64,000 bases of DNA. Source: Xylogone sp. PMI_703. Taxonomy: Eukaryota; Ascomycota; Leotiomycetes. The stretch is from positions 7,006,001 to 7,070,000 of the forward strand of contig JAJTUQ010000002.1 of the NCBI GenBank assembly GCA_021399445.1. The letters are read 5' to 3'. Below, piece by piece: positions 20,775 through 42,074 of this stretch (position 1 is the first letter of the stretch; each line of letters begins with the position of its first letter). The translations under genes were made by a program, and so were the position numbers. The notes beneath the pieces were generated by a model. It was not told the origin of the DNA and ran no database searches. It saw only the letters and a program-made list of their open reading frames with translations.

Positions 20775-23700
20775 ATGAAGTCTGCTGCAGACGCCGAAGC
20801 AGGCACCAGCCTGAGCGCGCCGTTAGATAATGGAGCCGACAACGAGAAAACTGAGAGAAAGAAGGTGGTGGTGGTAGGATTGGGGATGGTTGGAATTAGT
20901 TTCATGTGCGTGTCTATCGTAACCATTTCTTCAGCAATCTCATTGAAGTGCATGGAAATCGAGTAATGGCCAGCTAACCCCTCTTTACAGAGAAAAGTTA
21001 ATAAAATTCGATGCCAAAAGACGAGAATATGACATCGTTGTCATTGGAGAAGAATCACACCTAGCATACAACAGAGTCGGATTAACGAGCTTTTTCCAGC
21101 ACCGGAAAGTCGAGGATTTATACCTCAACCCTAAAGAATGGGTTCGTTCGTTCCAATTCCCTTCTGAATCTTAGACTAGAAAAAGAAACAAAAGACTAAC
21201 AGTCCCTTGGGAATGTCATTAGTATCAATCGGTCCCAACAGGCTCCTTGAATTACCACATTAACACCAAAGTCACCTCCGTTGATACCCTGCAGAAGAAT
21301 GTCACCTGCTCCTCCGGCGAAATAGTCTCCTACGATATTCTAGTCCTAGCTACAGGCTCTGATGCGCTCTTGCCACGGCACACTCCCGGCTATGACGCCA
21401 AAGGCGTCTTTGTCTACCGAACGATCGAAGATTTAGAAAGTCTCATTAACTATTCAGCAACCAAAAAGGGCACTATCGGCACCGTTGTAGGAGGTGGACT
21501 GCTAGGTCTTGAGGCGGCAAAGGCGATGATGGATTTAGAAGCTTTTGAGAAGGTTAAGCTGGTAGAGCGGAATCTCTGGGTTTTAAGCAGACAGCTGGAC
21601 TCTGATGCGGGTAGTCTCGTAGTTGAACAAGTTAGGGCTCTAGGGTTGGATGTGATGCTTAGCAAGAGAGTAGGCAAGATCGAAGTCGACGACGACAATG
21701 CCGTTAAGGGAGTAGTATTTGAAGACGGAGAGCGAATGGATTGCTCCACGATTTGCTTTGCTATTGGCATCAAACCGCGAGACGAGCTGGCGCGGCGTGC
21801 AAATATCGAATGCTCCGAACGGGGAGGTGGAATCGTTGTGAAAGATGATTTGAGTACCAGTGCTAAGGATGTTTATGCCATAGGTGAGTGTGCAAGTTGG
21901 GAGAACCAGACTTTTGGTCTGATTGCTCCTGGCGTTGAGATGGCAGATGTGCTGGCCTTCAATCTTACGCAGGCAAAGGTTCACTCATACCGGAAATTCA
22001 AGCGGCCAGATCTGAGCACAAAATTAAAGCTACTGGGAGTTGAAGTAGCTAGCTTTGGGGACTTCTTCGCTGATAGGGATGGACCAAAATACCTGCCTGC
22101 TCGAGTTGGAAGAAAGAAGGATGGGGAACAGCCCACTCCCGTGAAAGCTCTTACTTACAAAGACCCATTTCAGGCAGTCTACAAGAAGTACCTGTTTACG
22201 TTAGATGGCAAGTACTTGCTTGGTGGTATGATGATTGGCGATACGAAGGACTATGTCAAGCTCGTACCACTAGTCAAGAACCAGAAGATGTTAGAAATCC
22301 CTCCGAGCCAGCTGATTCTCGGAGCAAGTAAGGGGGATGACGATGGAGCAGATGATCTGGACGATGACACGCAAATCTGCTCTTGCCACAATGTTACTAA
22401 AGGAGATGTTCTCAAGGTAGTCAAAGATGGAACTTGCAAGAGCATTGGAGATGTTAAATCTTGCACGAAAGCTGGAACGGGATGTGGAGGCTGCATGCCA
22501 CTGGTAACGAGCATCTTCAACAACCAAATGAAGGCCATGGGTAATGAGGTGAAGAATCATGTCTGCCCTCACTTTAACTACTCCCGTGCCGATCTATATA
22601 ACATCATATCGGTGAAGCAACTGAAGACCTTCCAGGAAGTCATGAAAGATTGCGGAAATGACCCTGACAGTGTTGGCTGCGAGGCGTGCAAGCCTACTAT
22701 TGGGAGTATCCTTGCATCATTATATAATCAACATATCATGGACAAGGAAACCAGAGGATTGCAAGAAACCAATGACCGTTACCTAGGTAATATTCAGCGT
22801 AATGGCACATACTCCGTCGTTCCACGAGTCAGCGGTGGAGAAATCACTCCGGAGAAGCTCATTGTCATTGGGAACGTGGCGAAGAAGTATAATCTCTATA
22901 CAAAAATCACCGGTGGGCAAAGAATCGATTTGTTTGGTGCCAAGAAGCAGGATCTGGTGCCAATCTGGGAAGAGCTTATTGCTGGAGGCATGGAGAGTGG
23001 TCATGCTTATGCTAAATCTCTGAGAACGGTAAAAAGCTGCGTTGGTTCAACCTGGTGTCGCTATGGTGTTGGGGATAGTGTTGGCATGGCTGTCCGGCTA
23101 GAGGAGAGATATAAGAGTATTAGAGCACCGCATAAGTTGAAGGGAGGCGTAAGTGGGTGTGTGCGTGAGTGTGCAGAAGCACAGAGCAAAGAGTAAGGCA
23201 AATTATATTTTTTACCCCCTTTTAACACCCATTTACTTATTCTTCTCTCCAGTTTCGGTCTCATCGCAACTGATAAGGGGTTCAATATCTTCGTCGGCGG
23301 AAATGGAGGTGCAAAGCCCAAACACACCGAATTACTTGCCAAGGATGTTCCTCCAGACGATGTTGTTCCGATCATAGATCGCTACCTGATGTTTTACATA
23401 CGCACTGCAGATAAGTTACAGCGGACAGCTCGCTGGCTTGAAGCCCTCCCTGGCGGTATTAAATATCTTCGAGAGGTGATTGTGGAGGATAGATTAGGTA
23501 TCTGTGCCTCTCTAGAAGAGCAGATGGAGCAGCTGGTGGGCTCATTCTTTGATGAATGGGCTGAGACCGTTAAAGACACTTCGAAAAAGGCACAATTCAC
23601 CCAATTCAACAACACCACCGAAACCCTCCCGACCATGGAATCAGTGAAAGACCGAGGACAGGAGAGGCCAGTCTATTGGGCAACAGAGAGCGTTAAAGAG

Positions 23701-24273
23701 GACTTCCGGAACACGAAATGGACATCCTTAACGTGGCAGCCCATCATCGAAGCCTCCCACTTCGCCGGAGCAGACGATGCGCCGAATGGAATCTCAGCAA
23801 CCATCAAACGGGGGGACACCCAGCTGGCCATATTCCGCGTCCGGGGCAAATACCTGGCCTCACAACAAATGTGCCCACACAAGCGCGCCTTCGTTCTCTC
23901 CGACGGACTGATCGGTGACTCAGGAGACAAGCTCTGGGTCTCATGTCCATATCACAAGCGGAACTTCACTCTCACCGGCGAACAAGCAGGTAGATGCCAG
24001 AACGACGAAGAGGTCAGCATTGCCACCTTCCCTGTAGAAGAGAGAGATGACGGCTGGATCTATCTAAAACTCCCACCGGTGCACGAGCTGGACGGTGTGC
24101 TGGGCACGAAGAAGTGGATGGTGAGAAAAGGAGAAAGTGGGCCGGAGCCGTTTGAGAAGTTGGACAAGAAGATGGCGATTAATAGACTGAAGATGAAGGG
24201 GAGGAAACCATTTGAGGCGCGAGCAGAAGCTGTGAGCGTTGGTGGGAATGGACAGATTAATATTGACTGGTAA
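20775..24273 (+). CDS. niiA: Assimilatory nitrite reductase [NAD(P)H]
   Basis: Reduces nitrite to ammonium in the cytosol, the second step of nitrate assimilation. Four exons: 20775-20905, 20991-21141, 21223-23192 and 23253-24273, total 1090 aa, normal for fungal enzymes. Domains in order are an FAD/NAD(P) pyridine-nucleotide reductase module ([13 protein letters not shown] near residue 35), a BFD-type 2Fe-2S module with CSCHN at residue 480 and CGGC further on, and a nitrite/sulfite-reductase ferredoxin-like region. The sirohaem/4Fe-4S ligands are CVGSTWC (700-706) and CVREC (740-744). Last is a C-terminal Rieske domain with CPH at 958 and CPYH at 982. All key residues are present. Nitrate reductase and a nitrate transporter, often clustered with this gene, are not in the window. 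Confidence 0.97.
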
Positions 24274-38379: not shown

Positions 38380-39558
38380 GTTTGGTGGCAAGGCTGGAAA
38401 AAAATAGTGAGTGAAGAAGGAAAATAATGAGTGTCAAAACAAATACAAGTGTGAATAAGAAGCCAGGTAATTGGAGATCTCCTTTCGTACCGACAAGAAG
38501 GCGGAGAGGGAGGGTGATAGGAGGAAAGCTTAAGGGTAACTGCGCTATACTGTACTAGGATCCCTGCTAGCCGGATATCCTGTCAAGTCATATAAAATTT
38601 GTCCCATAGAGAACAAAATATTCTCACTCATACATCAACAGTTCAGTGCAATGGAATTATGGCGGACTTAGCATATTATGCAAAATACCCACCCGTGGCA
38701 TGTTAACTTGAAAGAAAAACATCTAAGTATCGAATCGGTATGATTAACTCTGCTCTCAGCTTTACCTCACAAACTGGATCAATGGAATAGCCTCCTCCTT
38801 TAGGTTGTCAGTGTTTATCAGTATTTCCTCATCTTGTGTAGGGCTGAGATCATTCATGAATGAGAGGCAACAAATATTTGCAACAGCATAAGCACCCGTC
38901 CTCTTGTAGAGCGATGTTACTACATCAAATCCCTCCTTGAAAAGCTACCAGTGATGTGATATGTTAACATATACATGTGGTTTTCAAGTGACTTTTGATA
39001 CGCCCAGGATGCCTCACGCGATTACGATGCCTCTGTTGTGATATATGACGTGACTGCCTCTATAGTATAATCTATGATGGCGACCCTGCGGCATTCTCTG
39101 ACTCTGCAACGCGGCACGATATCTCGCAATAGCATGTGGTAATGCGTGATACTACATCATGTTACTCCATATAACTCAAAACACACGTATCGCTTCCTAT
39201 GGTGACACCGATACTTACTGAATAAATACCATATATGACTTACAATTTTGCCCGCCCAGCTACTATGAAGACAGTCCTAATCCAGCAGAGCGGGAAGTTC
39301 AATTACTCGTGTTCATCACATACCCACGCATCTGTGGATCACTAGAAATTATTCTATTCAAGTACTTCGTCTAGGTTCCAGAGTTCATCTCATTCTGGAA
39401 GTCTGCCTACTACTTAGTTTAATTTCTCTTTGTGTTTTGCTCATCCTTGGGTGCTCACAATATATAAATTTGAAGACAACCATTAGATGCGTTACGGTTA
39501 GTTTGGCAACTACTATAGAAAGTCGTTTACGAGCAAGAGATTGGGGCTGTACTCCGTG
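38380..39558. other. Divergent intergenic region upstream of the ribonucleotide reductase gene
   Basis: A minus-strand frame open for about 60 codons (roughly 38769-38950) looks weakly coding but has no start or partner exon. A lone GAGCGGG lies at 39288-39294. No oxygen-responsive element could be recognised. Confidence 0.4.
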
Positions 39559-42074
39559 ATGGCAGCTGCAAGTAGGGCACGACAGGATGATATCAAGTTA
39601 GTCCAAGAATATTTAGCCAAAGCAACATGGAAGGGTGCCGAGAATGCAAACTCAACATACTCACACCAAGGTCTGATGCAATATATTTCAGGGCACATTG
39701 TATCAGAATATTGGCTCAACCATGTTTATACGGAAGAAATACGGCGTTACAGCAAAGAGGAGAATCGCTTCCATATTCACGATCTCGGATTTTTGAGTGC
39801 TTACTGTTCAGGATGGAGCATAGAAGATATCCTGCTTGAAGGATTTGGGGGAGTGGAGAATAAGATTCAGTGCAGGCCCCCGAAACACCTTAACGCTGCT
39901 CTTGATCAAATAGTCAATTTCCTGTTTACACTTCAGGGAGAACTTGCAGGAGCGCAGGCTCTGTCCAATTTTGATACTTACCTTGCCCCGTTTGTTCGTC
40001 ATGATGCACTATCAGAAGAGGCAGTGTTCAAATACGTTCAAAGTTTTGTATACTCGCTCAATGTCCCCACAAGGAGTGGCTTTCAGGCTCCATTTACGAA
40101 CATCTCGATGGATCTGGTCTGTCCTAGGACCCTTGAAGGACAGCCCGTGATCATCGGAGGAAAGCGGCACTCCACATGGACGTATAACGACTTTCAGAGG
40201 GAAATGGATATAATAAATTGTGCCTTTACTGGGGTAATGATACAAGGAGATGGCAATGGCAATATTTTCTCATTCCCCATCCCGACTTACAATCTCTATG
40301 ACGGGTTCGATTGGGATTCGCCCCAGTACCGGTCTATCTGGGCGATGACAGCTAAATATGAAGTCCTTACTTTGCTAATTTTATCAACAGTGATCTAAAT
40401 CCCGAAGATTTTCGGTCGATGTGCTGTAGACTGCGTCTCGACATAAGCAAGCTGCACAACCGTGCTGGAGGACTGTTTGGCTCTATCCCGTTGACGGGTT
40501 CTATTGGCGTGGTTACATTGAACCTTCCTAACCTTGCTATTCGTTGCGCTGGAACGAAAGAATCGTTCTTTGAGATTCTCGCAGATACGCTCCGAGTGGC
40601 AAAAGATTCCCTGGAGATCAAGAGGAAAATCATTGACGGGCATGCAGAATTATATCCCTATGCTGCTCATTATTTGTCTGTGATACACAAGCGAACAGGG
40701 TCATACTGGACAAACCATTTCAGTACAATTGGAGTACTGGGTATGCATGAAGCACTCATAGAGTTTTTTGGGGAGGGAATTATGGAGCAGAAAGATTTTG
40801 CTTTGGAGGTTCTGGAGTTTATCAAGCAGAAGCTCCAGGAGTTCCAGAGACAGACAGGAAATCTCTACAACTTAGAAGCTACCCCGGCAGAAAGCACCTC
40901 CTACAGATTGGCACAGCGAGATCAGTCGATCTTCCCTGATCATAAGGTCCCAAAGTTCTATACTAACTCAACTATGCTTCCAGTAAATGCAACAGAGGAT
41001 GTATTCGAGGCGTTAAATCACCAGGAAGAGCTGCAGTCTTCTTACACGGGAGGAACCGTTTTCCACGCATTCTTGGGCGAACGTCTTCCTAGTTGGAAAC
41101 AAGCACGAGACCTTGTCAAGACACTTGCTACACGATATCGCATTCCGTACCTTTCGTTGACGCCAACATTCAGTATCTGCAAGGCACATGGATATATCGA
41201 TGGCGAGCAGCCAAAATGCCCAATATGTGCAGAAGAATGTCTTGTATATTCGCGAATCGTGGGTTATTTTCGACCAACTAAAGACTGGAACGAAGGAAAG
41301 AAAACAGAGTTTGCTATGCGGAAGCGGTACCGTGTACCAGCAGCGATTATTGGAAGTAGCCAGTCCGTATCGCCAGTAGTAGCAGATCTTCCGGTTGCTG
41401 GCTATACAAAACTCACTTTGAGTGATTATCCAGGCAAAGTACAGGCATCCATTATGTTCACCTCGCGCTGCAATCTCCAGTGTCCCTGGTGTCATAATGG
41501 TCCCATTGTACTGGGGGAGCGGGATCCTATCACGGTATTTGACATTCTAAAACACATCACCTCAACGGAGCACAAGAACCTTGTAATATCTGGCGGTGAG
41601 CCTACCATCCATACTGGGCTCATCCCCTTCCTCCGCATACTCAAAGCATCAGGGGTCAGTGTGAAACTTGATTCAAATGGCACTGCACCAGATGTTTTAC
41701 GTCAAATTGTTGCGGAGAAGTTGGTTGACTTTATAGCCATGGACATCAAGTGTGCTTTACACAGGTATAAGCAAGTCGCCGGACGCCATGTGGATGTTGA
41801 GGTTCTTAGATCCAGCATCGACGTTATCAAGAGCTCTGGCGTACCATTTGAATTTCGTACGACTGTTGTGCCTTCACTTGTTGATATTGAAGATCTAGTG
41901 GAATGCAATAAGCTTGCTGATGGTAGACTTACTATCCAGCGTTTTAGGAGCGGGAAGTCGAATCTTCACAAACGCTTTAGAAACTGCGAAGAATACACAG
42001 AGGAGGAGTTAAATTCAATAGTTTCACAGTTGGCAATATCCGGCTACACGTACGGGAGATATTCGGCACCATAG
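39559..42074 (+). CDS. nrdD-nrdG: Class III (anaerobic) ribonucleotide reductase fused to its radical-SAM activase
   Basis: NrdD makes deoxynucleotides without oxygen using a glycyl radical; NrdG is the iron-sulfur/SAM enzyme that generates the radical. Here both lie in one intronless frame of about 838 codons. The NrdD part matches the Thermotoga-like branch: FHIHDLGFLSAYCSGW, RPPKHLNAALDQIVNF and FINSDLNPEDFRSMCCRL (active-site Cys region, residues 289-290). A Zn site and the glycyl-radical loop SRIVGYF follow (Gly about 569). After a short linker comes LSDYPGKVQ, then CNLQCPWCHNG (CX3CX2C from residue 638) and ISGGEPT. No N-terminal ATP-cone is visible. One base is apparently missing near 40360-40363, where the frame changes between AKY and PYFANFINSD. 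The start at 39559 is the first in-frame ATG after a stop at 39499. Confidence 0.88.

Follow-up and report, generated by a model that had tools for sequence, protein, structure and literature searches.

A reductase and activase locus in a fungal genome

The DNA analysed here (the window, 64,000 nucleotides) lies on an 8.2-Mb contig of Xylogone sp. PMI_703, a member of the Leotiomycetes with a genome of 50.1 Mb in 25 contigs, and carries on its forward strand the sequence of a class III ribonucleotide reductase, NrdD, followed by that of a radical-SAM activase, NrdG2. The start ATG at 39559 and the TAG ending at 42074 coincide with those of the first-pass annotation, and the motifs that it quoted (FHIHDLG, MCCRL, SRIVGYF, CNLQCPWCHNG and ISGGEPT) are all present, as are the fusion junction and the fungal host, but its description of the gene as one intronless frame is incorrect. 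Frame A stops at a TAA and the remainder is read in a -1 frame that is open from 40362. The features are as follows.

39559..40398, + strand: frame A, N-terminal NrdD (Pfam NRDD 1-237), ATG 39559 to TAA 40396-40398 (ORF and domain search)
39769-39789, + strand: FHIHDLG, frame A motif of NrdD
39799-39816, + strand: conserved active-site cysteine motif of NrdD, column invariant in 41 relatives
40332..40390, + strand: 59-nt GT-AG stretch skipped by the annotated protein P0001 (comparison of P0001 with both frames)
40362..40398, + strand: overlap of the open frames A and B, with the -1 break inside it or just upstream (frame analysis)
40362..42074, + strand: frame B (-1 relative to A), remainder of NrdD and then NrdG2, ending with TAG at 42072-42074 (ORF and domain search)
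40419..40433, + strand: MCCRL, finger-loop cysteine block of NrdD, invariant in 41 relatives
41247..41270, + strand: YSRIVGYF, glycyl-radical loop, with V-G-Y invariant in 41 relatives
41397..42074, + strand: NrdG2 radical-SAM activase domain (profile search)
41469-41501, + strand: CNLQCPWCHNG, NrdG2 motif in which CNLQCPWC is the CxxxCxxC cluster motif
41586-41606, + strand: ISGGEPT, NrdG2 motif

The Pfam NRDD matches of the first ORF (39559-40398; E-value 2.7e-69) and the second ORF (from 40419; 1.2e-96) are far beyond chance, and the C-terminal domain, with its CxxxCxxC motif, belongs to TIGR02495 (NrdG2; 151.2 bits, cut-off 131.15). Among NrdD families the highest-scoring is NF006126 (PRK08270 type), with a cut-off of 548 bits; taken singly, the split ORFs reach 381.4 and 409.2 bits, each below it. 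All 41 intact relatives match both NF006126 and TIGR02495, and one of these, P0003, scores 867.4 bits on NF006126. The alignment of relatives, A1, contains 41 of 47 listed proteins, with P0001, P0040, P0042 and P0045-P0047 omitted. With a structure model of P0003 (pLDDT 77.6, pTM 0.69), Foldseek gave matches for both halves: class III reductases, of which 4u3e was the best (5.0e-26), and the activase of pyruvate formate-lyase (3cb8, 5.6e-9). The roles given above to the glycyl-loop, finger-loop and active-site cysteine motifs are those usual for the family. PMC4493059 also bears on the roles of these motifs.

The ORF at 40419-42074 contains NRDD (262-562) and NrdG2, with the NrdD-NrdG junction uninterrupted in one frame, and because this junction is open the claim that a class III reductase is joined to a radical-SAM activase in a fungus holds. 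FHIHDLG belongs to frame A, whereas MCCRL, the glycyl loop and NrdG are all read in frame B. Lundin et al. (2010), who named such proteins NrdDG, remarked on the single reading frame that encodes them (PMC3019208). In Xylogone, the whole of NrdD and NrdG does not lie in a single open reading frame and, as the N-terminal portion of NrdD is read separately in frame A, we term this locus a frame-broken copy by descent rather than an intact member.

Neighbouring ORFs with Pfam matches are fungal-looking, for example a Suv3 helicase and two with fungal transcription-factor domains, or encode common enzymes and transporters. The objection that the gene might come from a bacterial contig is not borne out, as the 50.1-Mb genome, the contig of more than 7 Mb, the named fungal protein record and the fungal-type neighbours led us to reject contamination. 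In a survey of 829 fungal genomes for genes acquired from bacteria, PMI_703 (GCA_021399445.1, a mycoparasite) ranks in the top ten by number of transferred genes (PMC11708051); the terms 'ribonucleo', 'nrdD' and 'anaerob' are absent from the main text of that paper.

The frame break and the annotated intron

The public annotation at this locus, P0001, is an 818-aa protein of Xylogone sp. PMI_703 in which 258 residues from frame A precede 560 from frame B, with zero mismatches to either. It passes from one to the other by skipping 40332-40390, which has GT and AG ends and the removal of which restores the frame and drops a 20-residue stretch. The length of 59 nt is usual for fungal introns. That this is a real intron, with P0001 as the true product, is nevertheless very improbable: the 20 residues are present without a gap in 41/41 relatives in the alignment and, apart from the break, these 59 nt retain the character of conserved coding DNA. 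The structure model of P0003 places the 20 residues at the end of a helix (253-265) and in a strand (269-272), so that a protein lacking them would probably fail to fold as a reductase. A real intron was rejected and, since the stretch is coding in 41/41 relatives, the annotated intron is most likely an artefact of the gene model. This corrects the public model, in which the annotation conceals the frame break.

Frames A and B are both open over 40362-40398, as would be needed for ribosomes to produce the whole protein by a -1 translational frame jump. However, there is no X XXY YYZ slippery heptamer in 40340-40396, on which ground a programmed jump was rejected, and relatives P0002-P0044 are single proteins that need none; we regard such a jump as exceedingly improbable. 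That the break is exploited, with a new 59-nt intron or a frame jump making the fused anaerobic reductase conditional, for example on low oxygen, is likewise a reading to which we give very little credence.

There remain two explanations under which the break is simply damage, real or apparent. When the Xylogone protein is read in two pieces, it differs at only 1 of the 235 columns in which the 41 relatives all agree, and the differing residue is beside the break. In a leave-one-out control in which each relative was compared with the 40 others, rather than with 41 as for Xylogone, 13 of the 41 relatives altered none of their invariant columns and 28 altered 1 to 9. A single one-base event could explain both the odd residue and the change of frame, as expected if the fused gene is intact in the living strain and sequencing or assembly introduced a one-base error at this point. 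The GC3 of the locus, similar to that of its neighbours, also fits such an error, to which we give about an even chance. The terminal branch of Xylogone is, however, long beside those of the nearest rows (0.18 in the NrdD tree versus 0.056 for P0003, and 0.30 in the NrdG tree), which would also fit some relaxation of constraint and counts against pure error.

The same rather long branch in both trees also speaks for a very young pseudogene in a strain that has just lost its anaerobic enzyme and lives on class I, an explanation to which we give somewhat less than an even chance. No second NrdD locus, intact or otherwise, was found in a search of the Xylogone genome, so the break is in the only NrdD locus found; genes for both the large and the small subunit of a class I ribonucleotide reductase are present; and NrdDG is sporadic among fungi (Lundin et al., 2010; PMC3019208). 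Against a pseudogene, there is no other damage across the 1.7 kb of frame B or the 0.8 kb of frame A. Such near-full conservation indicates that the gene was fully constrained until very recently, or is still so and the assembly is wrong. The cause of the break would thus appear to be either very recent inactivation or an assembly error, and we lean slightly towards error. With class I genes present Xylogone need not rely on the NrdDG gene in air and, as long as the frame is broken, there is reason to doubt the proposal that its copy supports oxygen-free DNA synthesis.

Distribution and origin of the fused gene

NrdDG genes are of a known kind that public records already name. Lundin et al. 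(2010) described the fusion in Fusarium, Schizosaccharomyces japonicus and Phytophthora, argued for a bacterial origin and suggested that fusion allows a eukaryote to express the distal gene of an operon (PMC3019208, section 9). The first-pass annotation knew of no description of this layout, and with theirs its novelty falls. As in the eukaryotic NrdDG of that study, found in fungi and oomycetes and forming one group near bacterial sequences, NrdD precedes NrdG on one chain at the Xylogone locus, but this copy is frame-broken in the assembly and Xylogone is absent from the eight species given by Lundin et al. (2010).

Domains of both NrdD and a radical-SAM activase are present on one chain in 58 of the best 120 proteins listed from 7998 that were scored, the latter being drawn from a capped candidate set, as counted from precomputed domains. 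Within the same best 120, six of the first 64 do not have both domains (P0046, P0049, P0059, P0060, P0064 and P0067) and the remaining 56 are unfused. The hosts of the fusion include Fusarium, Ilyonectria, Dactylonectria, Clonostachys, Apiospora, Phaeoacremonium, Pleurostoma, Grosmannia, Ascosphaera, Cirrosporium, Brettanomyces and Phytophthora, so that a fused anaerobic reductase recorded in eight eukaryotes in 2010 is now on record in many more fungi. Some individual entries deserve mention. P0017, a fusion labelled as from the basidiomycete Pleurotus ostreatoroseus, sits among ascomycete rows, such as those of Mariannaea and Ilyonectria, consistent with either transfer or contamination. P0065 and P0066 are two fusions, perhaps from protists, on a separate long branch inside the fused group, and P0040 from Fusarium xylarioides is a fusion shortened to 671 aa, which may be a further copy in decay or one with a faulty gene model. 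P0049 is an NrdD of S. japonicus without a radical-SAM domain. Lundin et al. (2010) reported a singleton nrdD in this yeast in addition to the fused gene; the Discussion of PMC8520639 refers to a transferred S. japonicus enzyme of anaerobic deoxynucleotide synthesis as 'Class-I', probably a slip for class III.

An ATP-cone is listed among the precomputed domains in 47 of the 56 unfused proteins (from P0068 on, among the best 120 of 7998), whereas scans of 41 fusions gave zero matches to this domain. A cone encoded by an upstream exon in Xylogone was also rejected: the forward frames of ~39000-39558 hold 12, 8 and 7 stops, nothing cone-like was apparent by eye, and 41/41 relatives gave no match to a cone. 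Between two reference columns, the linker that joins NrdD to NrdG ranges from 8 to 63 residues across the 41 fusions, a variability that suggests a loose tether.

Prokaryotic reductases of the NF006126/PRK08270 type and their NrdG2 (TIGR02495) activases belong to the same families and have the same gene order as the Xylogone locus, but are encoded by two genes. Selection by two peptide patterns gave 583 confirmed places, and in 78 of the best 80 of these a separate nrdG2 follows nrdD, in agreement with the statement of the first-pass annotation that the two are separate proteins in bacteria. In one of the other two (L044) the contig stops 43 bases past nrdD, which accounts for the missing nrdG. 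The other (L060, 2641-5472), from Anaeromyxobacter terrae SG22, encodes a 943-aa fusion with the same NrdD-NrdG2 order on one frame. Four of 24 genomes of its family have a match and, as the other three carry the halves as separate matches in different frames, L060 is an independent event or an error. Descent of the eukaryotic gene from a bacterial fusion was rejected, as L060 is the one fused locus in the best 80 of 583 and falls among the bacterial rows, in a position that is unsure because it is a long row of odd composition.

Both trees, constructed with FastTree and unrooted, carry long-branch or composition warnings for several rows. Of the 114 rows of the NrdD tree, the eukaryotic/fused side accounts for 60 proteins together with the window pieces; the others are 13 unfused proteins and 40 loci from the set of 80. 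P0001, P0040, P0042, P0045-P0047 and P0067 are omitted, and the eukaryotic/fused side includes P0049, P0059, P0060 and P0064, which have no radical-SAM domain. In this tree the 61 eukaryotic/fused rows are on one side of a branch with support of 100 and the prokaryotic rows are on the other. The NrdG tree, in which three pairs of long branches meet and 12 rows have odd composition, separates 51 fusion rows from 79 prokaryotic loci at a branch with support of 99. The Xylogone copy thus groups in both trees with eukaryotic NrdDG and apart from prokaryotic NrdD and NrdG. Since the eukaryotic/fused rows are separate from all the prokaryotic rows used, and in agreement with Lundin et al. (2010), the sequences support an origin of NrdDG outside the fungi; the first-pass annotation had proposed an anaerobic bacterium as the source. 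Together with the separate prokaryotic genes, the grouping fits the proposal of Lundin et al. (2010) that two adjacent genes were acquired in a single event and later became one.

We conclude, with a probability of roughly 0.88, that the Xylogone locus represents, by descent, the already described NrdDG, the fused class III reductase of eukaryotes. A bacterial nrdD-nrdG2 pair was probably acquired once and became a single gene without an ATP-cone, which is patchy across fungi, yeasts and oomycetes. In the Xylogone assembly this gene is cut by one -1 break near 40362-40398.

Predicted chemistry of the intact relatives

With the help of S-adenosylmethionine, NrdG generates a radical that then resides on an NrdD glycine, where oxygen destroys it; from there the radical initiates reduction via a cysteine. 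The glycyl-radical chemistry of class III NrdG and NrdD is also treated in part of PMC3019208. In the intact relatives, the C-terminal NrdG2, with a 4Fe-4S cluster and S-adenosylmethionine, would place the radical on the glycine of an NrdD domain, either that of its own chain or that of a dimer partner, from where it would move to the finger-loop cysteine and allow ribonucleotide reduction without oxygen. The Xylogone copy has the Cys pair and the Glu of NLE, both invariant in the 41 relatives, and in an alignment of P0003 the same Glu is opposite a Glu of T. maritima and opposite a Tyr of T4 NrdD. A third Cys and a Glu in the active site define the NrdD2 subtype in parts of PMC4493059, and thioredoxin is listed as the reductant of the NrdD2 type in parts of PMC9176816. 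The Glu and the additional Cys of the Xylogone copy, putatively in the active site, resemble these and may point to a thioredoxin-like reductant in place of formate. No match to pyruvate formate-lyase was obtained in a search of the Xylogone genome.

A class III reductase domain (NRDD) in fungi, as in Xylogone, is also reported for anaerobic rumen fungi in a passage of PMC6712302 that is silent on fusion to an activase. Our literature search, which was not exhaustive, found no biochemical study of a fused NrdDG. For oxygen-free DNA synthesis in fungi, the intact copies elsewhere are the ones to study, and the Xylogone copy is no evidence of function. Elsewhere in the window, at 21247-24273, there is a nitrite reductase-like gene, with one ORF that has Pyr_redox_2, BFD and NIR_SIR domains and a following ORF, on the same strand, that has a Rieske domain.
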